From Arthrobacter sp. 35W (lineage in GTDB: Bacteria > Actinomycetota > Actinomycetes > Actinomycetales > Micrococcaceae): DNA of 64,000 bases. Location: positions 1,364,001-1,428,000 of the forward strand of contig NZ_KI519454.1 in NCBI RefSeq assembly GCF_000482545.1, read 5' to 3'. Each line of letters starts with the position of its first letter. The stretch's first letter is position 1. The notes under the pieces were generated by a model, which made no database searches, was not told the DNA's origin, and saw only the letters and a list, made by a program, of their open reading frames with translations. This document shows positions 22,976 through 42,053 of this stretch, piece by piece. A program made the translations under genes and the position numbers.

Positions 22976-25060
22976 TCAAGGCCGCGGTGCGAAGCCTTCG
23001 AAGCGCACATCCCAGCCCTGGGGGAGCGGACGGGCAGTGGTGCCGTCGCCTTCGGTGAGCAGCTTGGCGACGGCGGCGAGGAGCCCCCCGTTCCCCGGCA
23101 GATAGAGCGGCAGCCGGTTCGCAACCTGGAAGTTGTGGCCATTGGAGAGCACCCGGTTTCTCGGCAGGGGGGACAGCAGCATTTCCAAAGCAGCGTCCGG
23201 GCGGTCGAGTTCCGTGGCGCACATGGCGACAAGCGGGAAGTCCCACCCCCAGGTGGACCTCCACTCCCACGATTCCAGCACCCAGTCGAGGGTCCGACCC
23301 ATCGTTTCGAGGTCGATTCTGCCCGTCTGCGGCACGAAGCCGACGGCGCCCAGGAGCGACGGGTGGTCTATCAACTGGCTCGCGCCGCGCACAGCCTCGT
23401 ACCGGCCCTCGGACACCGGGGGATCAACCAGCCGCTGCGCCGCAAGCTGCCACGAATCCGGTACGTGGTGCCCACGGCGCCGGCGCCACTGGCAGGCGAC
23501 GTCCAGCGCCCAGCCGATGTAGGCAAGCTCAAATGTTGGATCCCACGTGGTCGATGAGTCGTACCGCTCTTGGGCAGGCATGAGGGGCGGCGCCAGGTGG
23601 GCGGTTCCGTCCTGCCACCACAAAACGCTGACCAGGAATTCGGCGGATTCTTCCACGAGATCCGCGTAGCGCTCAAGAACGGCAGGGTCTTCCAGCCGGG
23701 CCTTATAGATGAGTTCGGCAAAGTGGATGGGGTGGGGCTGCTGCCACAGCAGGAGCGGTCCAATGTCGTTAGGGCTGTCGATGCCCTCGGGACCGGTGTG
23801 TTTGGGCCAACGCGCTCCGGCGTAGCCGTTCCGCGCCGCGTTCTGGCGTGCTGTCGGCAGGATGCGGCGGTACCATTCGAGGCTGCGCTCCAGCAGTCCA
23901 GGGCGCCCCCACATGGCGAAGTGCGCCGCGTGCCACCAATGCATTTCGAGGTGGAACGTTCCGCCCCAGGAATTGCAGACCAGCCCGCTCTCCTGCGGAG
24001 GAAGCGATCCCGCGCACTGGATGGCTGTCAGGTATTGGGACAGGACGATCCTGCGTTCCAGCTCGGCAGCCCGTACATCGGAAGACCGGGCAAAGTCCAC
24101 CGCGGCGCCGCTCTGCCAGAAGGCCCCCCAGTGCTCGGCAGCACTGGCAAAGGCCTCGGCAGCAGAGGGGAGCGGCCGGGCACAAGGATCAGGAGTGAAT
24201 TCCACGATGAGGTCCACGGCGTCGCCGTTCGGAACGATGTCTATTCCGTGCTGCCCCGCAGCCTCTATGGCGGCGCCTTCCGCCCGCACACGGACTGAGT
24301 AGGTGGATGCGTCGACAGTCCTGGTGATGTGGGCGGCCCCGTCGTCAGCAATGACAACCTTGGTGGCATGCGAGTCCGGCCGGCCCCAGTCTTCGTCGGC
24401 CTCCCACGAATCATGCACTGTTGCAAAGGAGAGACGGATCCGCGCGTTCCCGGTCGCAAACAGCTCGGACGAAGCCGACACGGCCAGGATGTCGCGGCGG
24501 GGATGCACGACGGTTCTTGTCCAGGTGCGGCGCCCGCCCAGGGAAAACGCGCTGGAAATCTGTCCACCCCAGAGGTCGAGGCACTGGTCGATGTCCTCTA
24601 GCTCTGTGGGGTCAACGACGTCGGCGCCACTGTCTGGATGGCGCAAAACGTAGGCGATCCGACCCAAATGCAGTCGCTGTGGGTTGACCCAAAAGTAGTG
24701 TCCGGCCGGCTGGTCACGCCGTGCGTCATCATCGCTGAGCCGCCAATCGTACGCGGTGGGGTACCTGCGGGACATGCCGTCGGGTGTCGGGAATTCCTCC
24801 ATGGTGTCCTCAAGGTCGAGGCCATGGGGGTTGGGTGCCCAATGGTACGCCCACTGTGCCTGGGTTCCCAGCGGCATGCCGCTGCGGTTTCCAGCCCGTG
24901 AGGCCGAGCGGCTGTGCCAGTCCGCGAAAGTCTGCAGGCCCGTCGCATCGGCGGTGAAACAAAACTCTCCGTTGCCAACACTCAATGGCGATTCGACGTC
25001 GACGGTGGATCGGCTGATCCGGTGGCGGTTGACGACTGATTTGCGGTCGATTCCGTCCAT
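22976..25060 (-). CDS. alpha/alpha-barrel (six-hairpin) glycoside hydrolase-like protein
   Basis: A 694-residue cytosolic protein. An N-terminal beta-rich domain (~1-280, SPLSVGNGEFCFTADATGLQ) is followed by a helical (alpha/alpha)6-type catalytic region (~320-650) with LVCNSWGGTFHLEMHWWHAA, a likely Glu/Asp-bearing block as in GH65/GH95-type enzymes. WESWEWRSTWGWDFPLVAM-like Trp-rich segments would line the sugar site. I recognise the fold but not a characterised family. It starts 2 bp after the permease stop, so it is in the ABC operon. Confidence 0.75.
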   Translation of the reverse strand: MDGIDRKSVVNRHRISRSTVDVESPLSVGNGEFCFTADATGLQTFADWHSRSASRAGNRSGMPLGTQAQWAYHWAPNPHGLDLEDTMEEFPTPDGMSRRYPTAYDWRLSDDDARRDQPAGHYFWVNPQRLHLGRIAYVLRHPDSGADVVDPTELEDIDQCLDLWGGQISSAFSLGGRRTWTRTVVHPRRDILAVSASSELFATGNARIRLSFATVHDSWEADEDWGRPDSHATKVVIADDGAAHITRTVDASTYSVRVRAEGAAIEAAGQHGIDIVPNGDAVDLIVEFTPDPCARPLPSAAEAFASAAEHWGAFWQSGAAVDFARSSDVRAAELERRIVLSQYLTAIQCAGSLPPQESGLVCNSWGGTFHLEMHWWHAAHFAMWGRPGLLERSLEWYRRILPTARQNAARNGYAGARWPKHTGPEGIDSPNDIGPLLLWQQPHPIHFAELIYKARLEDPAVLERYADLVEESAEFLVSVLWWQDGTAHLAPPLMPAQERYDSSTTWDPTFELAYIGWALDVACQWRRRRGHHVPDSWQLAAQRLVDPPVSEGRYEAVRGASQLIDHPSLLGAVGFVPQTGRIDLETMGRTLDWVLESWEWRSTWGWDFPLVAMCATELDRPDAALEMLLSPLPRNRVLSNGHNFQVANRLPLYLPGNGGLLAAVAKLLTEGDGTTARPLPQGWDVRFEGFAPRP

Positions 25061-28315: not shown

Positions 28316-30484
28316 ATGCGTGCCACAGGACAGAATTCATCCGGCAGACCGCGGCTCCTGGCCCGGGATCCGCAGCTGGGTGCGGCCTACTACAACGAGT
28401 ATCTTCCGGACCCGGGCCGGTTGGCCCGCGACATGGAACTCATGCGGGAGGCGGGGATCACCCTCATCCGCGTTGGTGAATCCGTGTGGTCAACTTGGGA
28501 GCCGACGGATGGCCGCTTTGATCTCGAGTGGCTGCAACCTGTGTTGGACGCCGCGGCGGGAAATTCCATCGACGTCATCCTGGGCACGCCCACCTACGCG
28601 GTTCCGCCGTGGTTGGCGAACAAGCACCCGGAGCTGGCCATTGAGCGCGTCGATGGAGCATCGGTGCGCTGGGGTGCGCGGCAGGAGGTTGACTTTACCT
28701 CGCCGGTGTTTCGCACGTACGCCGAGCGTCTGATCAGAAACGTGCTGGCGCGCTATGGCCGCCATGAGGCAGTGGTCGGGATCCAGGTGGACAATGAACC
28801 AGGGCTGCACCTCATCGCCAACAGTGCGGTGGTCGCCCGGTTCGTGGAGCGGTTGCGCGGGGATTACGATTCCGTGGAGCACCTGAACGAAGCCTGGGGG
28901 CTTGCGTACTGGTCGCACCGGATATCCACCTGGGATGAACTCTGGCATCCCGGGGGCAACACGACTCCAGCGTACGATCTGGCGTGGCGCAGATTCCAGG
29001 CGGACCTGACCACTGAATTCATTGCGTGGCAGGCGGACATTGCCCGCCAGCTGGTGCCGGAGGACCGCTTCATCACCACGTGCATCGCCTACAACCGGGC
29101 CGCCGTGGATGACGTCGGGCTGGGGCGGGTCCTGGATGTCGTTTCAGGCAATGCCTATCTCGAGATGCAGGACGCGCTCGGCGCTGACGCATCGGCGTCG
29201 TACGGTGCGGACTACTGGTTTACGACGTCGCCGGCGGGTCTGATCCAACAGGCCGACAGGATGAGGTCCTCCCAGGGCGCCTCCTTCCTGGTGACGGAGA
29301 CCGGGGCTACCTCGATTGCGGGAAGCCATCTGAACTTCCCTCCCTATGACGGCCAGCTGGCGCAGGTCGCATGGGCTCTCATCGCCCGTGGTGCCACGTT
29401 GGTGGAGTACTGGCACTGGCATACGCTGCACCACGGAGCCGAGCAGGCCTGGGGCGGCATTCTTGGCCACGACCTCGAGCCTGGCCGCACATATCGGGAG
29501 ATTGCCGCCATCGGCGCGGGCCTGGCCGCCGCAGGCGAATCCCTGCGTGGGCTCCAACCGCAGGAGGATGTCGGATTCCTGTTCAGCCGCGAGAGCCGAT
29601 GGGCGATGCAGTTCCAGCCGCCGCTCGCAGTGGACGGCTCACGTGCACCGGACCGGTGGAGCTATGACCGCATCGTTGGAAGGTTTGTAGAAGCGGCGTT
29701 TGACGCCGGTTTGCAGACTGGGGTTCTCGCCGTGGAGCAGCTGCCTTCCGCGTGTGAATTGCTCGACCGTTTCCCCATCCTTGTCGTGGCAGGCGCTTCT
29801 GTGTTGTCGGACGACGCCGCGGACGTGCTCTGCGCCTATGCGGAGATGGGTGGCACGCTTGTTCTGGGGATCCGCAGTGGCGCCGGGGACCAGTTGGGGC
29901 GGGCGCGCGTCTCGGCGCTCCCGGGCCCCTTCCGTTCCGCCGCGGGGGTAAGTGCCCGCGAGTCGTCCAACCTTCGCGGACTCGTGCCCTTGCTCCGGCC
30001 GGGGTCCGAGGCTCCCAGCGATGATGCAGACGGCGCCGCAAGGCAGGGCACGGCCGAGGCATGGGCGGACGCCCTTGAACTTGAAGGTGCGCAGGCGCTG
30101 CTCGGATATGACGATCCCCACCTTGGCCGGTGGGCAGCAGTAGCCGAGAATTCCTTCGGTGCCGGGCGGGTGGTGTCGGTGGGCACATTGCCGGACCGGG
30201 CCACTCTCGCCAATCTCTTGCGCTCCATCGCCGAAGGCACTGGAGCCGACGGCATTCTGGCCTCCACGGTGGTTCCGCAGAAGCCCGGGCATGTGACGGT
30301 TCATGGGGCGGTGAACGCAGCCATGGAGACCATCTGGTTCCTCCACAACTGGAGTGCTGCTCCGGTTGACGTCCCCCTTGCCGCGCCCTTGATGGACCTT
30401 CTGGACCCTGCCCGGCTGGTCCACACGGGATCCGTTCAGCTCGCCCCATGGGGAGTGCGCGTCTTCATTGGAAGGCCCGGCTAG
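28316..30484 (+). CDS. beta-galactosidase, GH42 family
   Basis: A 722-residue three-domain enzyme. The barrel starts LGAAYYNEYLPDPGRLARDM; the acid/base is Glu161 in VGIQVDNEPG and the nucleophile Glu328 in FLVTETGATS. A trimerisation domain (~400-640) and a small C-terminal beta domain follow. GH42 enzymes release terminal beta-galactose, or alpha-L-arabinopyranose in some members, from plant oligosaccharides. It is cytosolic, without a signal peptide. AAGGAAG precedes the ATG. It is divergent from the ABC operon and converges with the SMP-30 gene with overlapping stop codons. Confidence 0.93.
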   Translation: MRATGQNSSGRPRLLARDPQLGAAYYNEYLPDPGRLARDMELMREAGITLIRVGESVWSTWEPTDGRFDLEWLQPVLDAAAGNSIDVILGTPTYAVPPWLANKHPELAIERVDGASVRWGARQEVDFTSPVFRTYAERLIRNVLARYGRHEAVVGIQVDNEPGLHLIANSAVVARFVERLRGDYDSVEHLNEAWGLAYWSHRISTWDELWHPGGNTTPAYDLAWRRFQADLTTEFIAWQADIARQLVPEDRFITTCIAYNRAAVDDVGLGRVLDVVSGNAYLEMQDALGADASASYGADYWFTTSPAGLIQQADRMRSSQGASFLVTETGATSIAGSHLNFPPYDGQLAQVAWALIARGATLVEYWHWHTLHHGAEQAWGGILGHDLEPGRTYREIAAIGAGLAAAGESLRGLQPQEDVGFLFSRESRWAMQFQPPLAVDGSRAPDRWSYDRIVGRFVEAAFDAGLQTGVLAVEQLPSACELLDRFPILVVAGASVLSDDAADVLCAYAEMGGTLVLGIRSGAGDQLGRARVSALPGPFRSAAGVSARESSNLRGLVPLLRPGSEAPSDDADGAARQGTAEAWADALELEGAQALLGYDDPHLGRWAAVAENSFGAGRVVSVGTLPDRATLANLLRSIAEGTGADGILASTVVPQKPGHVTVHGAVNAAMETIWFLHNWSAAPVDVPLAAPLMDLLDPARLVHTGSVQLAPWGVRVFIGRPG

Positions 30485-31368
30485 AGGCCCGTCGGCGGAT
30501 GCGGGGCGGTCGTCAGCGTCCTTAGGCGGTAGAGCGACGACGAGGCGGTGATGAACAGATCGCTGCCATCGTCGCCGCCAAAACAGACGTTCGACACTGT
30601 CTCCGGGATGGGCACATGGCCGAGGAGTCCGCCGTCGGGCGCGTAGACATAGACTCCGTCACCCGCGGAACTCCAGAGCCGGCCTTCGCGGTCAATGGCG
30701 AATCCATCGGAGGCGCCGTGGGGGACCGTTGCGAAGACGCGGCCGGCAGCGGCGTGGCCGCCGTCGACGTCGAACGCGAGGATGTGCTTGGCCTCCGGAT
30801 GGGGGCCGTAGAATCCGGTGTCGGAGACGTAAAGGGTGCCTCCGTCGGGCGAAAAGGCGATCCCGTTTGGATGGGTCATCGAGGTGACAACGGGGGAGGC
30901 AACGCCCGTGCCGGGGTCGAAGCGAAAGACATAGCAGCCCTCGTAGTCCTGGGGCCCCGGCCGCCCCTCGCGCCCACTGGGGTGGAGGCCGTAGGGGGGA
31001 TCGGTGAACCAGATGGACCCGTCGGCGGCCACCGCGACGTCATTGGGGGAGTTGAAGCGGCCACCCTCCCACCGATCCACGAGGATCTCGGTCCCGCCGT
31101 CGGCCCCTTCGCGTTCGATGGCGCGGCGGCCGTGGCTGCACTGCACGATCCTGCCCTGCTGGTCGAGGGTTCGGCCGTTGGCGAACTCGGCCTCCGCGTG
31201 GGCCACTGTTGTTTCTCCGCTCGCCTGGTCCCAGTCAAGAATCCGGTTGTTGGGGATGTCGCTGAAGCGCAGCCGTCCGGTGCGCGGCAGCCAGGCCGGC
31301 CCCTCTGTCCATGCGGCGCCCGTGTAGAGGAGTTCAGCCGAGGTGCCGGGGGGAATGAGTGCATCCAT
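30481..31368 (-). CDS. SMP-30/gluconolactonase-family lactonase
   Basis: A 295-residue six-bladed propeller. The metal-ligand regions are WTEGPAWLPRTGRLRFSDIP (Glu), FNSPNDVAVAADGSIWFTDP (Asn), HPNGIAFSPDGGTLYVSDTG (Asn) and GASDGFAIDREGRLWSSAGD (Asp). These enzymes hydrolyse aldonolactones made by sugar 1-dehydrogenases. AAAGGTCTGACC precedes the ATG at 31368; another ATG 18 nt upstream is possible. With the SDR dehydrogenase at 41172 it could form the oxidative sugar-to-aldonate step. A CGTTTCAA operator lies 17 nt upstream. Confidence 0.88.
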   Translation of the reverse strand: MDALIPPGTSAELLYTGAAWTEGPAWLPRTGRLRFSDIPNNRILDWDQASGETTVAHAEAEFANGRTLDQQGRIVQCSHGRRAIEREGADGGTEILVDRWEGGRFNSPNDVAVAADGSIWFTDPPYGLHPSGREGRPGPQDYEGCYVFRFDPGTGVASPVVTSMTHPNGIAFSPDGGTLYVSDTGFYGPHPEAKHILAFDVDGGHAAAGRVFATVPHGASDGFAIDREGRLWSSAGDGVYVYAPDGGLLGHVPIPETVSNVCFGGDDGSDLFITASSSLYRLRTLTTAPHPPTGL

Positions 31369-31384
31369 GGTCAGACCTTTCGTC

Positions 31385-31398
31385 ATGAATCGTTTCAA
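31385..31398. promoter_or_regulatory. CGTTTCAA-type operator in the lactonase/lacZ divergent region
   Basis: ATGAATCGTTTCAA (minus-strand TTGAAACGATTCAT) matches the ideal palindrome at 12 of 14 positions. It lies 17 nt upstream of the lactonase start and about 150 nt before the GH2 gene, so one site could control both. Confidence 0.55.
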
Positions 31399-31548
31399 TG
31401 ATACTATCGTCCCGCGCCCGCCTTTGCGAGGCCTGGACTCCACCGAGAGTCCTCCCATCCGTGCGGGGTAGATGCACTGCGTGTCCGATGATGCAGCCCC
31501 GAACGTCCCGCCCCCCTGCCGCACCCCCCCCATTGAACAGGACCACCG

Positions 31549-34473
31549 ATGCCCCACTATTGGGAAGACCACACCCCCGGATCGGGCCGCCGCGAGCCCC
31601 GCGCGGACGCGCTCAGCAATGCCCGCAGACTCAGCCTCAACGGCGACTGGCGGTTCCGGCTCTCGCCCACGGCGGCGGGCACGGGGGCCGGCTTTGTCCA
31701 CGCTGGCTTTGACGATAGTGGATGGGATGCCATCCGGGTGCCTTCCCACTGGGTTTTGGAACCCGTCACGCCACTGGCAGGCGGCCCCGCACGCTCTTTG
31801 CGCGGCACCGCCGAGGGCCCGCTGTACACCAACACGGCACTCCCGATTCCCCTGGACCCCCCTCGCGTACCCACGGAAAACCCCACCGGGGACTACCGTC
31901 TGGTCTTCGACGCCGGCGAGGGCTGGGAAGCGGCGGTGCTGCGGTTCCAGGGCGTGGACTCCTGCGCGAAGGTGTGGCTCAACGGCAAGGAGCTGGGCTA
32001 CTCCACGGGCAGCCGGTCGCCGTTCGAGTTTGACGCCACGGTGGCCCCAGGCGAGAACGTGCTGGCCGTGCGGGTCCACCGCTGGTCTTCGGGCACCTAC
32101 CTCGAAGACCAGGACATGTGGTGGCTGCCGGGGATCTTCCGCGATGTCGAGCTGATCGAACGGCCTGTCGGGGCCATCGACGACTTCTTCGTCCATGCCG
32201 GCTACGACCATCGAACAGGCCAGGGCACGCTGAGCATCGACGCCTCAACGCCGGCCCTCGTGGAGATCCCGGACCTGGGCATCAGCATGGCGGCAGGGGC
32301 GACCTCCACCGTGCCCGTGGAACCCTGGAGCGCCGAATCCCCCAGGTTGTACCGGGGCACACTCACCTCCGCCGGCGAAACGATTGAGCTCCGCATTGGA
32401 TTCCGCACCATTGGGATCCACGACGGCGTGCTCCTTGCCAATGGCCGGCCGGTGTTCTTCCGCGGGGTGAACCGCCACGAACACCATCCGGACACGGGGC
32501 GAACCCTGGACCGCGAGACGATGGTCCAGGACATCGTGGCGATGAAGCAAAACAACATCAACGCCGTGCGCACCAGCCACTATCCACCGCACCCGGAGTT
32601 CATCCGGCTGTGCGACGAGTACGGGCTCTGGGTGGTGGAGGAAGCGGACCTTGAGACCCATGGCTTCATCTACGCCGGATGGGAGGGCAATCCGCCGGCC
32701 GATCCGCAGTGGCTGCCGGCCATGATGGACCGCACCCGGCGCATGGTGGAGCGCGACAAGAACAGTCCCAGCGTGGTGGTGTGGTCCATGGCGAACGAGA
32801 GCTGGGTGGGCGGAAACTTCGATGCCCTCGAGTCCTGGATCCGCGACCGCGACCCTTCGCGACCGATCCACTACGAGCGTGATCCGAGCTACCACAACTC
32901 GGACTTCGCCTCGCTGATGTACCCATCGTTGGAGCTTTTAGAGCAGATCGGCCGCCGCGAGGATCCCCGCCCCGAGGGAATCAGCGACGGCGAGGACGAC
33001 CGCCGTCGTTCACTGCCGTTCCTGCTCTGCGAGTACGCCCACGCCATGGGCAACGGTCCCGGATCGTTGGCCGACTACCACCGCATCATGAGATCGCACG
33101 AGCGGTTCTGCGGTGGTTTTGTGTGGGAATGGATCGACCATGGCTTCCGGAACCGGAATGCTTCGGGCCAGGAGTTCATCATGCATGGCTCCGATGTCGC
33201 CTACCGTCCAAATGGTGGCCGGTACTGCCTTGACGGCCTGGTCTTCTCGGACCGCACGCCCTCGCCGGGACTTGCCGAACTCAAAAAGGTCATCCAGCCC
33301 GTGGAGATTTCCGTGGGTGAAAGGATCCTCATCCGCAACGGCTACGACGCACTGGCGCTGGACCACCTGGTCTTCCGGTGGCGTTTGGAGGTCGATGGCG
33401 TGCTTGAATCCAGTGGCGTCCTGGACGTCCCGCCGACGGCCGCAGGGGAGGGTGCCACGCTGGCCATCCCGGCGGAACCCGGACTTGATCCGGGGGAGTG
33501 GTGGCTGACGGTGGAGGCCGTCCTCGCCGACGATGCCGCGTGGGCGCCGGCGGGTCACCTTGTTGCCTGGTCCCAGGGGCTGCTCGCCGCCCGCCCCGCG
33601 CGTCAAACTCCCGGGCCGCTGCGGCGGGTGTCGTCGTCCAACGACGTGCTCCAGCTCGGTGATGCGCTCTTTGACGCCACCTCCGGAAGGCTCACCCGGC
33701 TCGGACGCCTGGAACTCGACGGTCCGCGCCTGGACGTGCACCGTGCACCCACTGAGAACGACCGCGGGCAGGGCGGCAGCAACAATCTCGCCGCCGTGTG
33801 GCTCGCCGTCGGAATCGACAGGATGCAGCACCGCGTCGACAGCGTCGAAACAGACGGCGACAGCATCAGGGTGGCAGGGCGCTGTGCCGCGGCCACGCAC
33901 CCCCATGCCATCGAGTACACCTTCGACTGGAGCGCCGACGATGCAGGGCTGCGGTTGGAGTCCTCCGTGGAATTCACGGGACCGTGGGCAGACACGCCGT
34001 ACCAGCACCGCGACATCGTCCTGCCCCGGCTGGGCCTTCGGCTCGGCCTTCCCGGCGCCTACACCGACGCCAGATGGTTTGGCCGGGGGCCGGGGGAGTC
34101 CTACGTGGATTCCAGGGAGGCCGCGGGCATCGGAATCCACGCCTCAAGCATTGATGCCCTGCAGACTGCGTATCCGGTCCCCCAGGAGAATGGCAACCAT
34201 GTCGACACCCGGTGGCTGGAATTGGCGGGCCGTGGACTGCCCACCCTGCGCGTTGACGGTGGACCGGCATTCGACTTCACCGCGCGGCGCTGGTCTAGCG
34301 AGGCCCTCGAGACGGCCAGGCATCCCCACGACCTGGTCGATTCGGGCACGGTGTTCTTGAACGTGGACCACGCCCAGATGGGGCTGGGGTCGGCGGCCTG
34401 CGGACCAGCGTTGCCCGATCAGTACCGGATTCCCCGCGAACGCACCACCTGGAGCGTCCGCTTCCGGGCCTGA
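31549..34473 (+). CDS. lacZ: beta-galactosidase, GH2 family (LacZ type)
   Basis: A 974-residue five-domain enzyme, near the usual ~1020. The jelly-roll begins LSLNGDWRFRLSPTAAGTGA; the signature VFFRGVNRHEHHPDTGR is present; the acid/base is Glu417 in WSMANESWVGG and the nucleophile Glu495 in FLLCEYAHAMGNG. The beta-galactosidase small chain ends the protein with ARWFGRGPGESYVDS. It hydrolyses beta-galactosides in the cytosol. AGGACCACCG precedes the ATG. It is divergent from the lactonase, and a very strong hairpin follows the stop. Confidence 0.95.
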   Translation: MPHYWEDHTPGSGRREPRADALSNARRLSLNGDWRFRLSPTAAGTGAGFVHAGFDDSGWDAIRVPSHWVLEPVTPLAGGPARSLRGTAEGPLYTNTALPIPLDPPRVPTENPTGDYRLVFDAGEGWEAAVLRFQGVDSCAKVWLNGKELGYSTGSRSPFEFDATVAPGENVLAVRVHRWSSGTYLEDQDMWWLPGIFRDVELIERPVGAIDDFFVHAGYDHRTGQGTLSIDASTPALVEIPDLGISMAAGATSTVPVEPWSAESPRLYRGTLTSAGETIELRIGFRTIGIHDGVLLANGRPVFFRGVNRHEHHPDTGRTLDRETMVQDIVAMKQNNINAVRTSHYPPHPEFIRLCDEYGLWVVEEADLETHGFIYAGWEGNPPADPQWLPAMMDRTRRMVERDKNSPSVVVWSMANESWVGGNFDALESWIRDRDPSRPIHYERDPSYHNSDFASLMYPSLELLEQIGRREDPRPEGISDGEDDRRRSLPFLLCEYAHAMGNGPGSLADYHRIMRSHERFCGGFVWEWIDHGFRNRNASGQEFIMHGSDVAYRPNGGRYCLDGLVFSDRTPSPGLAELKKVIQPVEISVGERILIRNGYDALALDHLVFRWRLEVDGVLESSGVLDVPPTAAGEGATLAIPAEPGLDPGEWWLTVEAVLADDAAWAPAGHLVAWSQGLLAARPARQTPGPLRRVSSSNDVLQLGDALFDATSGRLTRLGRLELDGPRLDVHRAPTENDRGQGGSNNLAAVWLAVGIDRMQHRVDSVETDGDSIRVAGRCAAATHPHAIEYTFDWSADDAGLRLESSVEFTGPWADTPYQHRDIVLPRLGLRLGLPGAYTDARWFGRGPGESYVDSREAAGIGIHASSIDALQTAYPVPQENGNHVDTRWLELAGRGLPTLRVDGGPAFDFTARRWSSEALETARHPHDLVDSGTVFLNVDHAQMGLGSAACGPALPDQYRIPRERTTWSVRFRA

Positions 34474-34544: not shown

Positions 34545-35849
34545 TCAGTTGATGGATGCAGCGCTCTGCCGGGAGCCCAGTGTGCGGATGGTCTCGAAGA
34601 GGTCCACCGGCCCCACCTGGCCGCCCTTGAGCAGCATCTCGACGCCGTCCACCCAGCCCTTGGCCGAACCAACCGTGCACAGGACGACGTTGCCCACCGG
34701 GTTTGACGCGATCGACAGCGAGCGGGCGCCCAGCCGGACGAGGACGTGGCTGGAGGTGTCCCCGCCGCACACAATCACCCGCCGGGTTGCGCCGCGGTGG
34801 AGTGCTGCCTCAACAACCGCCGAGAGCCTGGCGGCGAGCGTCTCGACAAGGCTCAGGCCCGCACAGGCTTCCGCCGCGTCGGCGCCGGTGGTGACCACCA
34901 CGCTTCGCCCCGCTGAAAGCTCGGCAAGGACGCGCTCCAGAAGTGGCGCGTCATCCCGCCCCGAGAGCTCGAGGACGGTCCAGCCCTGGCGCCGGGCGTC
35001 CTGGACCTGGCGCGCCGTCTGGTGCGATTGGGAGCCCGAGACGGCAAGCACAGGTCCATCCGGGTTCAGCTGGCCACTGCCGGCCCCCAGGGTTTCAGCG
35101 CCCTGGGAGAGGGCCGCCGCCAGGCCCCGCGTAAATCCGCCAGAACCAAGGACAAACTGCGGGGTGTGCGGCTGTGCTGCCGCAACCACGGCTTCCCCGA
35201 CCATGTCGACGTGCCCGTCCGTGATGGCATCGAGCACTGTGGCCGCCTCGCTGCGCTGTGCCAGATTGGCGGCAATGGACTGGGCATCGGTGTACTCGGT
35301 GAGGTGGAGGCTGCCGATGGCCAAGTGGGTCTGCCGCGACAGATGCCTGGCAAGGTCCGACTCGTCCATCGGCGTCGTGGGGTGCGCGGACATGGTCGGT
35401 TGGCGGTCGAGGCGGTGGACAGTTCCCTGCTCGGCCGCGAAATGATGGCCAAACGCTGTATATCGGCCGAAGTCGGGCTGCGCGAAGAGCATGGGCACCG
35501 TGGCCGGTCCGAACACCCCCTGCGCGATCTCCAGCACGCGGCCAAGGCTGCCAATGCTGGGGGAGGAGTCGGCGGTTGAGCAGGCCTTGTACTGCAGGAT
35601 CCGCGGCCCCAGGGCAGCCAGCGCCTCGAGCGCGGGTTGGACCTCCGCCGCCAACGTGCCGGTGGGCAGCGAGCGGGCGACGCCGGCAATTCCGACGGCA
35701 TCCACCTCCCCGGCCGCGGCCTTCAACTCCTCGGGATCCGGAAGGCCGAGGAAGAGCCTGCTCGTCCACCCTGCGCGCCGCAATTGGAGAAGGACATCGA
35801 CGCTGCCGGTGAAATCATCTCCGTAAAAGGCGAACCGCAGGCTATCCAC
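34545..35849 (-). CDS. four-carbon acid sugar kinase family protein (DUF1537; OiaK/OtnK-like)
   Basis: A 434-residue kinase. The N-terminal DUF1537 domain begins LRFAFYGDDFTGSVDVLLQL (acid-sugar-binding) and includes PRILQYKACSTADSSPSIGS. The C-terminal nucleotide-binding domain has AVSGSQSHQTARQ and IVCGGDTSSHVLVRLGARSL. Characterised members phosphorylate four- or five-carbon acid sugars, including 3-oxo-isoapionate (OiaK) and threonate-type acids. I chose GTG at 35849 with GGAG upstream; it overlaps the RuBisCO-like gene by 8 bp. Pairing with a RuBisCO-like protein favours an OiaK-type role; the exact substrate is inferred. Confidence 0.85.
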   Translation of the reverse strand: MDSLRFAFYGDDFTGSVDVLLQLRRAGWTSRLFLGLPDPEELKAAAGEVDAVGIAGVARSLPTGTLAAEVQPALEALAALGPRILQYKACSTADSSPSIGSLGRVLEIAQGVFGPATVPMLFAQPDFGRYTAFGHHFAAEQGTVHRLDRQPTMSAHPTTPMDESDLARHLSRQTHLAIGSLHLTEYTDAQSIAANLAQRSEAATVLDAITDGHVDMVGEAVVAAAQPHTPQFVLGSGGFTRGLAAALSQGAETLGAGSGQLNPDGPVLAVSGSQSHQTARQVQDARRQGWTVLELSGRDDAPLLERVLAELSAGRSVVVTTGADAAEACAGLSLVETLAARLSAVVEAALHRGATRRVIVCGGDTSSHVLVRLGARSLSIASNPVGNVVLCTVGSAKGWVDGVEMLLKGGQVGPVDLFETIRTLGSRQSAASIN

Positions 35850-37170
35850 GTGGTGCTCCAAACATTTCGGTGGCCCGCCGCAGGTCGACCGATGCGGCGA
35901 GGGCCGTTGCGGTGGTTTCGCCGCGCGCGGCAGAATCCCAGGCCGCGCGCATGCTCCGCACCCCGGCGGCCGGCCCATCGGGATGGCCATGGATCCCACC
36001 GCCGGCGAGGACCAACAGATCATCGGTGCCCGTGGCCGCGTAGGTTGCGTGGGCAAGGCCTGCCCACTGTCCGGACGATAGTACAGGCAAGGTCGCCGTC
36101 TGCCCCAGCAGGGGTTCGCGCACCGCGGCAATCGAGTCCAGCACCTCGGCGTCGCTCTCGTAGAACTTGTTGCTGATGCCGTTCGTGTGGAGGTGGTCGA
36201 CGCCGGAGAGCCTGGCCATCTTCTGCCAGGCCCGGAAGGAGAAGCCCAACTGGTCCGATCGGCTGATGGAGCCGAACATGGCCCGGTGTCCATGGATGGG
36301 GACCGTTGCATGGCGGCGCAGGAATTCAACCCCCGCCAGCCCGACCATGTTGATGCAGGCCATGACGCAGGTGCCGCCGGCCTCGACGACGAGATCATGG
36401 TTGGCTTCGAGCCGGCCGATGTCGTCGGTGATGTTGAAGGCATACATCGGCATCACGCCTGTGCGGTCGGCATGCCGGCGAAGCACGGGCATCACGGCGC
36501 GGACCCGCTCAGCCAGGGGGGCCGATGGGCCATTGCCCTGCAGCTCGTCGTCCTTGATGAAGTCCACTCCGGCGCCTGCCAGTTCCGCGACCACCTCGGC
36601 GAGGTCCGCCGGCGACAGCCCGATGCTCGGCTTGACGATGGTCCCCAGCAGCGCACCGGAGGGTCGGGACATGAGCCTTCTGGTTCCTTCAATGCCGAAG
36701 GCCGGCCCCGGATAGCGCTCCGCGAAGGCCGGGGGAAGGTCCAGATCCATGAGCTTGATGGCGGCGAGCTCTTTGATCTCGAACAGATTGCCGGCCACGG
36801 CGGCCTGAAGGTTTGGCAGCGAGGGCCCGAAGTTGGCCAGCGGGAAACGGATCCGCAGCTTCGCCCGGCGGCGTTTGGCCGGATCGCCGACGGCGCCGGG
36901 AAGCGGCGAGGAGCCCGTCAGGGGAATCTCCTCGAGGTCCACCACCTGGGCTGCGAAGCGGGAACGCAGCTCATCGGACTCCCGGGCGACCCGGACAAAC
37001 GTCCCGGTCGACTGTTCGCCGGCAAGCACAGCGGCGGCCCGCTGGAGGTCCAGGGAGGTTTCGATATGGTACGTCGCCACCACGTATTGTGGGTCTGCTT
37101 CGGCCACAGCGCCGGCGGACGTGGCCGGCGCCTGATGAGGAAGTGTCGTTTCAGTCATTGGTGTCACCAT
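35842..37170 (-). CDS. RuBisCO-like protein (form IV; OiaX/OiaT-like candidate)
   Basis: A 442-residue RuBisCO large-subunit homologue. Counterparts of nearly all catalytic residues are visible: Lys180 (GTIVKPSIGLSP), the carbamylation block Lys206-Asp208-Glu209 (FIKDDELQG), His295-Arg296 (PIHGHRAMFG), His326 or His328 (GVDHLHTN), loop-6 Lys335 (ISNKFYE), Ser366/Gly367 and the phosphate-binding GGG at 390-392. No small subunit or phosphoribulokinase is nearby, so it is not carbon fixation. Known RLPs near DUF1537 kinases are 3-oxo-isoapionate-4-phosphate decarboxylases or transcarboxylases. The start overlaps the GH127 stop by 7 bp; 37158 is an alternative start. Confidence 0.87.
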   Translation of the reverse strand: MVTPMTETTLPHQAPATSAGAVAEADPQYVVATYHIETSLDLQRAAAVLAGEQSTGTFVRVARESDELRSRFAAQVVDLEEIPLTGSSPLPGAVGDPAKRRRAKLRIRFPLANFGPSLPNLQAAVAGNLFEIKELAAIKLMDLDLPPAFAERYPGPAFGIEGTRRLMSRPSGALLGTIVKPSIGLSPADLAEVVAELAGAGVDFIKDDELQGNGPSAPLAERVRAVMPVLRRHADRTGVMPMYAFNITDDIGRLEANHDLVVEAGGTCVMACINMVGLAGVEFLRRHATVPIHGHRAMFGSISRSDQLGFSFRAWQKMARLSGVDHLHTNGISNKFYESDAEVLDSIAAVREPLLGQTATLPVLSSGQWAGLAHATYAATGTDDLLVLAGGGIHGHPDGPAAGVRSMRAAWDSAARGETTATALAASVDLRRATEMFGAPRG

Positions 37171-39152
37171 GCCAACGGGAGCCAGACGGACATTTCGGAG
37201 GGCCCGCGGTTGCCCCAGGCAAAGTAGGGGATCAGCCTCACGGGAGCGGTGCGCAGCTCGGCGTCGTCAACCTCGGCATAGAGCCCCTGTTCCTGGACCT
37301 GCGGGAGAATGACTGCCTCGCATTCGAGCACCACCATCGGCCGTCCTTCGACGTCGCGCTCCACGGGTGTGAAGGTGGTGCCGCGGCGCAGCGCAACCTG
37401 CTCCATCCTCACGCCATCGGGCAGATCCTGGCTTTCGACGCAGTAGACGACAGGACCACGGGTCACGGCAACCTGGTTGGAGATTTCCTCGGCCAGACGG
37501 TGCCCGCGGACCATTCTCACCGGCATGGGCAGCACCAGGGAGATGGTGTCGCCCACCTGCCACGGCCGGTCAAGGGTGGCGTACGTCCCTGGCGCGCCGA
37601 CGGCAACCTGTTCGCCGTTGACGGCGATGGTGCTGCCTTCACTCCAGCCGGGAATGCGCAGTTTCAGCGGCAGCCCGCCGTCCGCCACCGAGGTTACGGT
37701 GAAGTCGACATTCTCACCCCAGGGCTGGGCGGAGGTTTCCTGCAGCCCGATGCCACGGCCGTCGACTTCGACCTGGACCTGTGCGCTTCCATAGAGGTGG
37801 ACCCAAAGGCCGTCGTCCGAGGTGGACATGGCCCGCTCGTGGAACTGGGCCAGCGTGCGTGCGATGTTGGGTGGGCAGCAGAAGCAGCTCATGTATTCCG
37901 CACGCAGGCGGGCGTCCGACGGCGGCGGGGTGGGAATCGGGCGCTGGGCCGTATCGCCGGGCATGCGGAGGTCGAACGGGAGCCCACGCACCTGGCGCAG
38001 GGGGTTCGTATAGAAGTAGCGCGTTCCATCGAGGCTGATGCTGGCCAGCAGGCTGTTGTAGGCAATCCGTTCAATGACGTCGGCATACGCCGCGTCACCG
38101 GTGAGTGCCAGCATCCGCTCGCTCCAAAAGATCATGCCGATGTTGGCGCAGGATTCGTTGTGTGCCGTGGTGTTGGGCAGCTGGAACGCCCGCCCGTACG
38201 CCTGGTGCACGCGGCTGATGTCGCTTTGCATGGGGTTGCCGTCCGGAGAGGCGCCGTCGTACAAGGCACCGCACCCTCCGGTGATGTAGAGCTTGGTGTC
38301 AACCACGTCCTTCCAGAGGCGGTCGAGCACGGTGGCGAGCTCATCGTCGCCGGTCTCGGCGACGATGTCCGCAAGCCCCGCGTACAGATAGTTGGCCCGG
38401 ACCGCGTGGCCCGCGGCGACCTTCTGGTCCCGGACCCGCACACGGTCCTGGTTGTCATCGCCCCCCTCGAAGTCGTCACGCACGGTGACAAAGGATTCGG
38501 CCAAACGGAGGTAGCGTTCGTTGCCGGTCTCCCTGTACAGCTCAATGACGGCCATGTAGTGGGACGGGCAGATTGCACTGCGTGCCAGCTGGTCCGTGTG
38601 GTTTGTGGCCAGATCCTCCAGGAACCCGGCAGCCCTTTCCGCGGCGTCCAACAGAACCGTGCTGCCGGTGACGCGGTGGTGGCGCACGCCGGCAGTGATC
38701 AGGTGGCCCAGGTTGTACGTTTCGAAGTTGAACCTGTCGGCAAGGGCCTGGGCCGTTTCGCTGTTGCGCTCGGCAATGCGGGTGGGCGTGTGGAGGTAGC
38801 CGTCCTCACGCTGGACCGAGGCGATCTTGGCGGCGATCTGGTTGATCTCCTCTGCCAGCTCTGGATCGGGTGTGGTCTCCAGCAGGCTGATGGCCGCCTC
38901 GAGCCACTTGTAGAAATCACCGTCCAGGAACGGAGGGCCCTGGTGCCTGCCCTGGGCATCGCCGGCCGCGATGAGGAAATTCCGCCACCCGGGACTCACC
39001 GCCGGATCACTGAGCGAGTTCCACATGCTTGGCACAGTGACTGTGCGGGTGCGTTCAAGTTGATCTCCCCAGAAGCCGCCGTCCCACGTGATATTGGCTG
39101 CGGCAAGTGCGGAGAGCGGAGCATGCTGGCGCTTCGCTGTACTGCTGTTCAT
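37164..39152 (-). CDS. beta-L-arabinofuranosidase, GH127 family
   Basis: A 662-residue (alpha/alpha)6-barrel glycosidase. The zinc/cysteine active site of the family is visible: Glu333 and Cys335 in HNESCANIGM, and Cys425-Cys426 in MSCFCCPPNIART, where the first of the pair is the thiol nucleophile. A beta-sandwich follows after ~450. GH127 removes beta-L-arabinofuranose from plant arabinans, extensin sugars or rhamnogalacturonan-II side chains. There is no signal peptide. GAGGA precedes the ATG. It is the first gene of a three-gene operon with the RuBisCO-like protein and kinase. Confidence 0.92.
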   Translation of the reverse strand: MNSSTAKRQHAPLSALAAANITWDGGFWGDQLERTRTVTVPSMWNSLSDPAVSPGWRNFLIAAGDAQGRHQGPPFLDGDFYKWLEAAISLLETTPDPELAEEINQIAAKIASVQREDGYLHTPTRIAERNSETAQALADRFNFETYNLGHLITAGVRHHRVTGSTVLLDAAERAAGFLEDLATNHTDQLARSAICPSHYMAVIELYRETGNERYLRLAESFVTVRDDFEGGDDNQDRVRVRDQKVAAGHAVRANYLYAGLADIVAETGDDELATVLDRLWKDVVDTKLYITGGCGALYDGASPDGNPMQSDISRVHQAYGRAFQLPNTTAHNESCANIGMIFWSERMLALTGDAAYADVIERIAYNSLLASISLDGTRYFYTNPLRQVRGLPFDLRMPGDTAQRPIPTPPPSDARLRAEYMSCFCCPPNIARTLAQFHERAMSTSDDGLWVHLYGSAQVQVEVDGRGIGLQETSAQPWGENVDFTVTSVADGGLPLKLRIPGWSEGSTIAVNGEQVAVGAPGTYATLDRPWQVGDTISLVLPMPVRMVRGHRLAEEISNQVAVTRGPVVYCVESQDLPDGVRMEQVALRRGTTFTPVERDVEGRPMVVLECEAVILPQVQEQGLYAEVDDAELRTAPVRLIPYFAWGNRGPSEMSVWLPLAW

Positions 39153-39204
39153 GGTGTCGTCCTCGTTGTCGATTCCCTCATCAGGCGGGCGCCTGCATGC
39201 GTTG

Positions 39205-39290
39205 GTGACTATTCTCGCAAACTCGAATGAATATTCACAATAGCCGAGCGCAGTGATATGCTCAACGCGAACGAGGGGGTGAATATTCTC
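39205..39290. promoter_or_regulatory. three GTGAATATTCAC-like operators and a promoter
   Basis: GTGACTATTCTC (39205-39216), ATGAATATTCAC (39227-39238) and GTGAATATTCTC (39279-39290) match the palindrome GTGAATATTCAC at 10, 11 and 11 of 12 positions. The first two centres are 22 bp apart, two helical turns. On the plus strand TTCACA (39234-39239) and TATGCT (39257-39262) with 17-bp spacing form a promoter for the racemase-like gene, overlapped by the second site. The SorC-family gene at 39988 is the obvious candidate binder. Confidence 0.7.
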
Positions 39291-39326
39291 TCGAAGATGA
39301 CTGAACACGCACGAACGGACAACGAA

Positions 39327-39998
39327 ATGAATGAAACCCCCAGGATCGCGTTGCTGCACACGGGCGCGGTCGTGATCGGTCCCGTCATGGACATCGTGAA
39401 ACGGGAGCTGCCGGGCGTTACGGCCATCAACTACCTGGACGATCGCATTGTCGCCGACCTCAGCGACCCCGAGCTGTTCGATTCGGTGCCCCGCCGTGTT
39501 GGCGCACTGGCAAGGGCAGCAGCGGACGCCGGTGCAGTTGCCGTCATGTTGACGTGCTCGTCCATTTCAGAATTGGCGGCGCCCATTTCGGCCGAGGTGG
39601 GGATTCCGATCCTCAGGATCGATGAGGCCATGGCCGATGAGGCTGTTGCGGCTGGGGACCGGATCACGGTGCTGGCAACCCTGGCGACAACCTGCGCGCC
39701 GACGACCCGGCTCATTGCCGAGCGGGCCAAGGCGGCCGGGCGCACGCCATCCATCAACAGTGTGGTTGTTGAAGGCGCCTTCGCCGCAGTATCGTCCGGC
39801 GATCGTGCCAGGCACGATGTCCTGGTGGCCGCCGCGATCCAAAAGGCCTCGGAGTCCTCCGATGTGGTGGTGCTGGCGCAGGCCTCGATGGCAAGCGCCG
39901 CCCAGATCTGCGACGTGGCGGTGCCGGTGTTGACGAGCATGGAATCAGGCGTGAAGCGTCTCCACCAGCTGCTCGCGGCGCTCCCCGCTAAGGGGTGA
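39327..39998 (+). CDS. Asp/Glu racemase-superfamily protein
   Basis: A 223-residue protein of the aspartate/glutamate/hydantoin racemase fold (also arylmalonate decarboxylase and maleate isomerase). RIALLHTGAVVIGPVMDIVK opens the first half and VMLTCSSISELA carries Cys77. The second half has VVLAQASMASA where racemases normally have the second catalytic Cys, so a two-base racemase mechanism is unlikely. It may be a decarboxylase or isomerase using one Cys. I chose the ATG at 39327 because earlier starts lack ribosome sites and overlap the operators. Converges with the SorC gene, overlapping by 11 bp. Confidence 0.75.
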   Translation: MNETPRIALLHTGAVVIGPVMDIVKRELPGVTAINYLDDRIVADLSDPELFDSVPRRVGALARAAADAGAVAVMLTCSSISELAAPISAEVGIPILRIDEAMADEAVAAGDRITVLATLATTCAPTTRLIAERAKAAGRTPSINSVVVEGAFAAVSSGDRARHDVLVAAAIQKASESSDVVVLAQASMASAAQICDVAVPVLTSMESGVKRLHQLLAALPAKG

Positions 39999-41004
39999 GC
40001 CCAACGGGCAGCGGATCCGCGGCGGAACTGTCCGGAGCCACCAGTGCTTCAGCGGTGTGGATGTCGGTAACGAGCACGTTGACCCAGCCCCCGGCCAAGG
40101 CCCCGCGGATGGGTTCACGTTTGCGCCGGCCGCCGGCGACGCCCATGCGGCGGGGGATCGACAGGAAGTTCTCAACGGGTATGGAAATGGTGCGTGAGGC
40201 GAGGTCGCCCGTGACGGAGGTTCCATCCGCGGTGAAGACATGGTGACAAATGTCGCCGACGGCTCCCGCCGCCAGCAGCCGCTCAAGATCCTGCGGGGAG
40301 AAGGCATTCCCGCTTTCGGCAAGCAAGTCAGAGGGTTCAATGCTGCCGATGCCCACCACGGCCATGGTGAGTTCGCTCCATCGCCGCGTCACCTCGGTCA
40401 GGGCGACATCCTGCAGCAGGCTGTCGCGGGTGGCCCGGTCCGCGACCACGCCGGGGGCCGGCACGTAGACCGGTTTGGCGCCGAGCATCCGGGCGAACTC
40501 GCCCGCGAGCCGCTGCGCCTGGTTCTGGACCTCGGGTGTTCCGATGCCACCCAGAAGCTGCACCACTTCGGCGGCGCCGCCAACGGTGAAGGGGCGCATC
40601 CTGTCGACCAGGGCCAGCAGCGTCTGGCTCCACGAGGAGATGCCGATGCGGTCGCCGCCGCCCAGTGTGGCCTCAAGGTAGCTCCCGGCCGCCGCGCCGA
40701 GCGCAGAGTGGACGGCGAGTTCGTCGTCGTCGTTCTCGATATCGACGACGACGGCTTCCAGCAGGCCGAATTTCGCTTCGAGCTGCTCTTCCAGGTCCGA
40801 ATACAGGCCCGGAGAGACCATGACAGTGGTGCGGACGATTCCCTGGGCGGCGGCCCGCTTGAGGAGGCGGGAGACCTTCGCCTGGGAGATGTTCAGGGCC
40901 GTGGCGATGTCTGCCTGGCGGATGCCACGCTCATGGTACATGCGGGCAACTTTTGTCAGGAGCCGTACTTGCCCGTCAACTACAGTGTGGCGGCCGCTGG
41001 GCAT
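39988..41004 (-). CDS. SorC/DeoR-type sugar-responsive transcriptional regulator
   Basis: A 338-residue regulator. The helix-turn-helix spans ~15-57 (VARMYHERGIRQADIATALN, then ISQAKVSRLLKRAA). The sugar-phosphate-binding domain follows (LGGGDRIGISSWSQTLLALV; LADRVGVAGGRRK-like strands near the C-terminus, including RRMGVAGGRRKREPIRGALA). I chose the ATG at 41004 with GGAG six bases upstream. SorC proteins usually sense a phosphorylated sugar, which fits the kinase-containing operon nearby. It is divergent from the SDR gene and may bind the sites at 39205-39290. Confidence 0.88.
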   Translation of the reverse strand: MPSGRHTVVDGQVRLLTKVARMYHERGIRQADIATALNISQAKVSRLLKRAAAQGIVRTTVMVSPGLYSDLEEQLEAKFGLLEAVVVDIENDDDELAVHSALGAAAGSYLEATLGGGDRIGISSWSQTLLALVDRMRPFTVGGAAEVVQLLGGIGTPEVQNQAQRLAGEFARMLGAKPVYVPAPGVVADRATRDSLLQDVALTEVTRRWSELTMAVVGIGSIEPSDLLAESGNAFSPQDLERLLAAGAVGDICHHVFTADGTSVTGDLASRTISIPVENFLSIPRRMGVAGGRRKREPIRGALAGGWVNVLVTDIHTAEALVAPDSSAADPLPVGLTP

Positions 41005-41171
41005 GGGGGTCTCCGATCGGGGTGGCGAAACTGCAGGATGCATCCCGTGGATGTCCAGCCGTGGAACCGTCCATGCATGCTTGCCACAATTGTATCAGTA
41101 TTCGTTATTGACAGATTATTCAATTGGTGGAAGGTCCAGACAACCACCATGCACACAGAGAAGAGCAACGC

Positions 41172-42053
41172 ATGCGCATTGCAGTAACCGGCAGCTCAGG
41201 GAAGCTGGGTCGGGCCACGGTTGACCGGCTGCGCCAGGACGGGCATGACGTCGTTGGGCTGGACCTCGCGGGAGCCCCCGGCGTTGGATTCACCCGGGTG
41301 GACCTTGCCGACTACGGCCAGACGATCGACAGCCTGCTCGGCGTCACGGCACGGCATGAAGGGCTGGATGCGGTGGTCCACCTCGCAGCCATACCCGTCA
41401 ACGGGCTGGTGCCCGATGCCGCGACGTTCCAGAACAACATCACCGTCAGCTTCAATGTTGTCCACGCTGCCATGCGGGCCGGCGTCCGCAGGATTGTCAC
41501 GGCATCCAGCATCACGGCCATGGGATTCCCCTTCGACGAACCGCCGGCGGCCCTGCCCATCGACGAATCCACCACCGCCGCCAACAACACCTACGCTTTG
41601 GGCAAAGTGGCGGAAGAGGCCATGTGGCGCGAGCTTGTCCGGTGGGAGGAGGGCTTGAGCATCAGCTCGCTGCGGTTCACCAACGTCGTTGCTCCCGGCG
41701 AGTATGGAAGCTTTGCCCGGGCCTCCAATCCCGACTACAGGCGCGACCTGATGTTCAGCTACGTTGACTCACGCGATGGTGCCCTAGCGGTGTCACTCGC
41801 GCTGGAGCACGCGTCGCCCGGCTTTGACGTGTACGACGTCGCAGCGTCGGACACCGGAAGTGCCATTCCCACGGCGGAGCTCGCCACACTCCACTTTCCC
41901 GGCGTCCCGCTGCGGAAGGGTCTGGGCGAGTTTGAAACGCTCATGTCCATCGACAAGGCGCGGAGCCGCTGGGGATTTGAACCGGAGCACCTGTGGCGCG
42001 GCGAATACGCGGCGCACCTGGCATCGCTCCCAGCCGGCCCCTCTCCCACCTGA
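41172..42053 (+). CDS. NAD(P)-dependent sugar dehydrogenase/epimerase, extended SDR
   Basis: A 293-residue Rossmann enzyme: MRIAVTGSSGKLGRATVDRL with the nucleotide-binding glycines, VVHLAAIPVNG, ITASSITAMG-type Ser motif (RRIVTASSITAMGFPFDEPP) and the catalytic NTYALGKVAEEAM (Tyr-x-x-x-Lys). The overall form resembles uronate and sugar 1-dehydrogenases that yield lactones, which would feed the SMP-30 lactonase. GAAGAG precedes the ATG at 41172. The upstream region is AT-rich with TTGACA at 41108-41113. It is divergent from the SorC regulator and likely under its control. Confidence 0.83.
   Translation: MRIAVTGSSGKLGRATVDRLRQDGHDVVGLDLAGAPGVGFTRVDLADYGQTIDSLLGVTARHEGLDAVVHLAAIPVNGLVPDAATFQNNITVSFNVVHAAMRAGVRRIVTASSITAMGFPFDEPPAALPIDESTTAANNTYALGKVAEEAMWRELVRWEEGLSISSLRFTNVVAPGEYGSFARASNPDYRRDLMFSYVDSRDGALAVSLALEHASPGFDVYDVAASDTGSAIPTAELATLHFPGVPLRKGLGEFETLMSIDKARSRWGFEPEHLWRGEYAAHLASLPAGPSPT

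Follow-up and report, generated by a model that had tools for sequence, protein, structure and literature searches.

The locus in Arthrobacter sp. 35W

A stretch of 64,000 nucleotides from the genome of Arthrobacter sp. 35W (contig NZ_KI519454.1, positions 1,364,001 to 1,428,000; hereafter the window) contains an operon in which the genes for a GH127 glycosidase, a RuBisCO-like protein (RLP) and a DUF1537 kinase overlap by 7 bp (GH127/RLP, 37164-37170) and by 8 bp (RLP/kinase, 35842-35849). The overlaps were read off the sequence and agree with those given in an earlier note on this DNA, and the operon is real. It is accompanied by the gene for an Asp/Glu-racemase-fold protein, here designated RACE, and both are discussed below as a candidate system for the use of aceric acid (3-C-carboxy-5-deoxy-L-xylose), an uncommon branched sugar acid found in the pectin rhamnogalacturonan-II (RG-II). 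Pfam matches and open reading frames bear out the gene positions of the earlier note (Table 1), except for that of the SMP-30 lactonase, which is indeed close by, but whose open reading frame (30481-32211) lies outside the interval 34545-42053 to which it had been assigned; its domain spans residues 301-557, and the true start is perhaps near 31386.

Table 1. Features of the window, the operon and RACE first
Feature	Position	Strand	Evidence and remarks
GH127 glycosidase, aceric-acid-hydrolase type, 662 aa from ATG 39152	37164-39152	-	PF07944, 349 bits
RuBisCO-like protein (RLP), 442 aa	35842-37170	-	PF02788; PF00016, 222 bits
DUF1537 (four-carbon acid sugar) kinase	34545-35849	-	GTG start; PF07005, 165 bits, and PF17042
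RACE, Asp/Glu-racemase-fold protein	39258-39998	+	PF01177, 54 bits (cut-off 31); likely start Met at 39327
Two palindromes TGAATATTC(A/T), candidate operators	39228-39237 and 39280-39289		Between GH127 and RACE, upstream of GH127 and of the likely start of RACE
SorC-family regulator	39988-41043	-	PF04198, 185 bits
Epimerase-family SDR, accessory, not core	41124-42053	+	PF01370, 80 bits
GH2 beta-galactosidase	31549-34473	+	PF02836, 314 bits
SMP-30 lactonase-like protein, not core	30481-31386	-	PF08450, 156 bits; start is one of several candidates
Apiosidase-like GH, accessory	20349-21866	+	PF13204, 62 bits

The operon and RACE recur as one module

In named genomes, a scan with twelve RLP orthologues returned 360 relatives; the 80 best were taken with their flanks, and the genes at these loci were counted with family profiles built here, for which the thresholds were set after an earlier view of the loci and, in the case of SMP-30, the profile was a single sequence. 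The kinase is present at 79 of the 80 loci, RACE at 64 (Bacillota included), GH127 at 55, GH78 at 45, SorC at 37 and GH2 at 36, followed by a FAD/Fe-S dehydrogenase (25), a family designated x12 (18), SDR (17), apiosidase-like proteins (14), AKR (13), zinc alcohol dehydrogenase (9), rhamnose-isomerase-like proteins (6) and SMP-30 (4). The recurring unit is GH127-RLP-kinase together with RACE, and the lactonase and the SDR are accessory since they are found at 4 and 17 loci only. These counts, set beside the 64 loci with RACE, do not bear out the order proposed in the earlier note, i.e., dehydrogenase to lactonase to aldonate to kinase. In 78 of the 79 kinase-bearing loci the kinase gene follows that of the RLP immediately, in the same orientation and with a gap below 400 bases, which indicates a pairing beyond chance. 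Among the 46 loci of the clade nearest to the window (L010-L054 and L087), all possess GH127 and 45 possess RACE, the exception (L021) being situated at a contig end.

A phylogenetic profile across 297 genomes of the order located the RLP type (at least 545 bits) in 14 genomes, while one further genome carries a 430-bit relative. The GH127 type of the operon (at least 1013 bits; next 491) and the RACE type (at least 304 bits; next 220) occur in the same 14 genomes, which shows that the three constitute one module. GH127s as such are widespread, being present in 118 of the 297 genomes at E 1e-60 when every type is counted, so that the link of the RLP is with the operon type of GH127 only.

GH127 resembles the aceric acid hydrolase BT1003

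NF049879, the NCBIfam model of aceric acid hydrolase, was the sole NCBIfam match of all 13 operon GH127s scanned (that of the window and those of 12 of the 55 loci), although the window GH127, at 788 bits, falls below the cut-off of 950 and is for that reason not filed as an equivalog. The solved structure closest to the window GH127 is 5mqo (BT_1003; 640 bits, next 362), and the GH127 family profile likewise scores 790 bits against BT1003 and 489 against the next structure, so that, judged by sequence, BT1003 is its closest relative among solved GH127s. BT1003 is described as the aceric acid hydrolase of RG-II (PMC5698469) and is named as such, being an exception among characterized relatives, in PMC10850190, where the Cys3-Glu zinc site is also described. 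The PF07944 catalytic domain is present in the window GH127, and the Cys3-Glu zinc residues E335, C337, C427 and C428 are invariant in 13 of 13 aligned sequences. The column of HypBA1 E322, the acid/base position, holds Gln in both the window GH127 and BT1003, inside the motif HQxYGR (by an ungapped count back from the LPN motif, with a nearby insertion leaving some doubt).

Side chain B of RG-II is likewise in keeping with the gene order, as the GH2 enzyme BT_0993 is reported to act on Gal-beta-1,2-aceric acid (PMC11739564) and since GH2, GH78 and apiosidase-like genes accompany the operon at some loci. No signal peptide was evident by eye in GH127, GH2 or the apiosidase-like protein, and the sugars are therefore probably cut inside the cell. 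The suggestion of the earlier note that GH127 releases a different sugar, such as one from RG-II, is thus supported, with RG-II as the likely source, by the similarity to NF049879 and BT1003 and by the shared 14 genomes, whereas the order of steps that it proposed is not.

Exchanged partners: x12 and zinc alcohol dehydrogenase

GH127 and x12 were never found together at the 80 loci (55 versus 18, both at 0, neither at 7); at its 18 loci x12 (~574 aa; e.g., L079:7539-9260) sits beside the RLP-kinase pair in the place of GH127. A representative of x12 returned no Pfam hit when scanned. Among 120 homologues listed, one has a precomputed PF07944 match and most are unnamed or hypothetical, although approximately 16 are called glycoside hydrolase, GH127, DUF1680 or beta-L-arabinofuranosidase domain protein, and the kinship has consequently not gone wholly unnoticed. 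The E-x-C...CC residues of x12 (E298, C300, C396 and C397) are invariant in 12 aligned sequences and are spaced as in GH127, the x12 and GH127 profiles align with an hhalign probability of 95.8, and the top 21 Foldseek matches of an x12 model (pLDDT 76) are all GH127/GH146. In predicted fold and in residues, x12 conforms to cysteine glycosidases of the GH127/GH146 kind.

A search of seven x12 genomes did not find a GH127 of the aceric type (best 475 bits). Six of the seven loci with neither family were followed into their genomes: that of L063 has the aceric-type GH127 on another contig, those of L060, L072, L077 and L080 gave no match of the aceric type, and that of L075 gave no match at all. 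A similar exclusion applies to RACE and the zinc alcohol dehydrogenase, which never co-occur at the 80 loci (64 versus 9, both at 0, neither at 7).

The RLP differs from MtnW and from OiaX

The genome carries one RLP, the closest relatives of which are from Arthrobacter. Its best NCBIfam model is OiaX (NF042437; 416 bits, cut-off 700), followed by form III RuBisCO (TIGR03326; 233 bits, cut-off 497) and MtnW (TIGR03332; 154 bits, cut-off 514), all three scores being below the respective cut-offs. The residues K180, K206, D208, E209, H295, R296 and K335 named in the earlier note are all present; of the RuBisCO positions, E60, T65, N123, K175, K201, D203, E204, H294, R295, H327 and K334 are kept, while K177 is replaced by Ser182 and G381 by Gln368. 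A carboxylating form III RuBisCO was considered and rejected, given the score below the TIGR03326 cut-off and the two replacements, which leave the active site incomplete. Both NCBIfam-named OiaX proteins examined (L094 and L095) have D60, G123 and Q327, where the window RLP has E, N and H.

In an RLP tree of 102 rows, which was made by a quick method and has several long branches, four MtnW-type rows stand apart with an SH-aLRT of 100, while the window is placed among loci with GH127 and RACE, at a distance from both rows of NCBIfam-named OiaX. An MtnW-type enolase was rejected on the basis of this separation and of the TIGR03332 score. By its sequence, the RLP is neither MtnW-like nor an OiaX of the NCBIfam type. 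Clustering with MtnW-type enolases, the outcome which the earlier note had held to count against it, is seen neither in the tree nor in the scores; acid-sugar breakdown in the manner of OiaX/OiaT/OiaK is accordingly supported, the dehydrogenase and lactonase steps of the note apart. Of note, L046 bears the title Planococcus sp. APC 4015, yet its RLP falls in the tree inside Microbacterium and other Micrococcales, and because of this position the record is probably mislabelled or contaminated.

Five plasmid clusters encode RLPs with the kept residues; L092 has pyk, and L097 has both pyk and eno, which fits 3-phosphoglycerate as the RLP product. The L097 cluster, on a plasmid of the haloarchaeon Haloterrigena, also has an ApnO-like gene in addition to the RLP, a DUF1537 kinase, enolase and pyruvate kinase.

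Kinase and RACE

The kinase scores 253 bits against OiaK (NF042436), below the cut-off of 700; a second DUF1537 kinase is encoded far from the RLP operon in the genome. The model of RACE (pLDDT 92.6) matches the folds of glutamate racemase and arylmalonate decarboxylase in Foldseek, and RACE belongs with the Asp/Glu racemases by PF01177 and by fold, but it does not possess the two catalytic cysteines: the first motif (CSS) is kept, whereas the second reads LAQ(A/G)SM. All 10 aligned sequences share an HD pair. Given these residues, ordinary two-base racemization by RACE appears unlikely. At L116:2564-5201 a RACE-like gene adjoins two genes that score above the cut-offs of their models, one for a 3-oxo-tetronate kinase (512 bits against 350) and one for a 3-oxo-tetronate-4-phosphate decarboxylase (264 bits against 250), an arrangement that fits an isomerase making a beta-keto acid for a DUF1537 kinase; among four further loci taken around RACE-like genes, none had such a kinase called.

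A proposed route for aceric acid

Genes, families, overlaps and co-occurrence can be read from the sequence itself, and we consider it on balance probable that the operon and RACE release and break down aceric acid from side chain B of RG-II. The substrate is inferred here from enzyme family and gene context, as are the isomerase, kinase and RLP steps, which would proceed as follows. The GH2 beta-galactosidase would remove galactose from aceric acid, and GH127 would hydrolyse the aceric acid glycoside inside the cell. RACE may then carry out an aldose-ketose isomerization of aceric acid to the 2-ketose CH2OH-CO-C(OH)(COO-)-CHOH-CH3, which would be a beta-keto acid like 3-oxo-isoapionate, with CHOH-CH3 in place of CH2OH. 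Phosphorylation at C1 by the DUF1537 kinase would yield the RLP substrate, which the RLP, acting in the manner of OiaT, would decarboxylate, re-carboxylate on the other carbon of the enediol and hydrolyse. The predicted end products are 3-phosphoglycerate and lactate, the latter being L-lactate because C4 has the L configuration.

Three enzymes would suffice for this conversion, which matches the RACE-RLP-kinase core that is also found, with x12, in Bacillota. An OiaT-like reaction is favoured by E60, N123 and H327 of the RLP, which are absent from both OiaX proteins checked, and by the paucity of aldolases, for which a decarboxylase would call: class II aldolase-like genes were found by single-sequence searches at only 7 of the 80 loci, where six belong to the rhamnose type and the one in L080 is OtnC-like. 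The more far-reaching proposal, that racemase-fold isomerase, DUF1537 kinase and RLP transcarboxylase/hydrolase make up a complete route from aceric acid to 3-phosphoglycerate and L-lactate without net redox, and that x12 replaces GH127 in Paenibacillus, Bacillus, Kribbella and Streptomyces, is put forward tentatively, as a possibility that is rather less than even.

Alternative explanations

The substrate and first steps could be the same while the RLP decarboxylates only, like OiaX, or is an oxygenase, like the hamamelose RLP, a version that we regard as unlikely. As a decarboxylase it would produce a 5-deoxypentulose 1-phosphate, from which an aldolase would have to form dihydroxyacetone phosphate and acetaldehyde. 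OiaX is indeed the best model for the RLP, 5-deoxyribulose 1-phosphate is known to serve as a substrate of an aldolase (PMC6079011), and the hamamelose-pathway RLP, a reported oxygenase, has been linked to 3-phosphoglycerate and glycolate (PMC8914248); yet the window RLP does not share the D60/G123/Q327 of the two OiaX proteins, aldolase-like genes are as infrequent as stated above, and the two class II aldolase-like genes of the genome itself (C1:1245928 and C1:1527006) are more than 120 kb away. It is distinctly improbable that the RLP and kinase are instead an ordinary OiaT and OiaK of D-apionate catabolism, fed with apiose by the apiosidase-like enzyme. While their nearest models are OiaX and OiaK, and apiosidase-like genes occur in the window and at 14 of the 80 loci, the scores are far below the cut-offs, and neither RACE nor the aceric-type GH127 would be explained. 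The earlier note had reported no gene of the ApnO type, which holds for the window, but the genome does have an ApnO-like gene (39% identity to an L093 protein) 63 kb from the RLP; this lends the apionate explanation some support, although the gene sits in a separate and seemingly RLP-independent operon with MFS, DhaK-like kinase, RpiB, triose-phosphate-isomerase-like and AP-endonuclease-fold genes (L125, G000:C1:1328500-1346500). This gene set matches the RLP-independent apionate route, and the L125 operon probably encodes a route of that kind. Very improbable, in our estimation, is that GH127 is an ordinary beta-L-arabinofuranosidase and that some unrelated branched acid sugar, such as hamamelonate, is handled by the RLP branch. 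In the PDB, most of the GH127 chains listed, BT1003 among them, have an arabinofuranosidase as molecule name, and there are RLP-kinase loci with neither GH127 nor x12 nearby (L060, L075, L076 on a 5.9-kb contig, L077 and L080); against this, the window GH127 is separated by at least 278 bits from other solved types and, within the order, by 522 bits from the type that comes next, shares with BT1003 the Gln in the acid/base column, and occurs in the same 14 genomes as the RLP.

The aceric acid route has, for its part, a number of observations against it. The 14 genomes inherit one linked module and are hence not independent, and GH127, RLP and kinase all score below their NCBIfam cut-offs. OiaT cannot be placed by name in the RLP tree: a characterized OiaT sequence (from Xanthobacter autotrophicus) was not found, the sole OiaT label being the JGI name of an 83% identical protein (P0015). 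In the plasmid clusters L090, L091 and L093, with the kept RLP residues, neither pyk nor eno is seen over 9 kb. The FAD/Fe-S dehydrogenase of 25 loci is GlcD/YdiJ-like, i.e., of families that act on glycolate and D-acids, and has no obvious fit to L-lactate. Leucobacter (L077) has RLP, kinase and RACE, but its locus is without x12 and its genome without a GH127 of the aceric type, and the replacement of RACE by the zinc alcohol dehydrogenase at 9 of the 80 loci is not explained by one simple isomerase step.

Other features of the window and of related loci

With up to one mismatch, the palindrome TGAATATTC(A/T) has two matches in the window versus 0.28 expected, and two were reached in 1 of 100 shuffles; the exact site also lies near the GH127 start of L010 and of L011, and L082 has one copy at another place. 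At 22976-25060 on the reverse strand, the window encodes a 694-aa protein adjoining ABC permeases, which has sub-threshold similarity only to GH65 and a 53% homologue in L023. Loci from Kribbella, Streptomyces and Occultella (L058, L061-L067, L070, L073 and L096) encode a further family, x17, of ~690 aa (L061:16371-18422), of which the copy scanned had no Pfam or NCBIfam match.

Comparison with known systems

In the open-access literature searched, with most subscription papers outside its coverage and the texts available in part, no description was found of bacterial aceric acid catabolism after RG-II breakdown. If true, a three-enzyme route using Rubisco chemistry would close this gap in the fate of aceric acid, the RLP family would gain a substrate, the racemase fold would receive a suggested role in sugar isomerization, and attention would be drawn to a GH127-like family (x12) mostly missed by Pfam.

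D-apionate catabolism (OiaK with OiaX/OiaT) likewise employs a DUF1537 kinase and then an RLP on a branched beta-keto acid phosphate, two RLPs being described that decarboxylate, or transcarboxylate and hydrolyse, 3-oxo-isoapionate 4-phosphate (PMC6302742). Here, in contrast, RLP and kinase are far below the OiaX and OiaK cut-offs, the active site is unlike those of the two OiaX proteins checked, and the operon is without ApnO, a racemase-fold protein and GH127 being found instead. BT1003 (PDB 5mqo), the closest solved relative of GH127, shares its Cys3-Glu zinc residues and HQxYGR with Gln, but the GH127 studied here is below the NF049879 cut-off and is coupled to an RLP-kinase operon.

The Otn pathway consists of the isomerase OtnI, a 3-oxo-tetronate kinase and a decarboxylase. 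The order of isomerization, phosphorylation by a DUF1537 kinase and decarboxylation would be common to both systems, and L116 has a RACE-like gene beside OtnK and OtnC homologues; in the present operon, however, an RLP takes the place of the decarboxylase of class II aldolase fold. The RLP of the D-hamamelose pathway is reportedly, by the title of Kim 2018, an oxygenase. It resembles the system proposed here in that a branched plant sugar is used, that the RLP would act in the last step and that there is a link to 3-phosphoglycerate (PMC8914248), and it differs in the sugar concerned and in the oxygenase activity which that title assigns to it.

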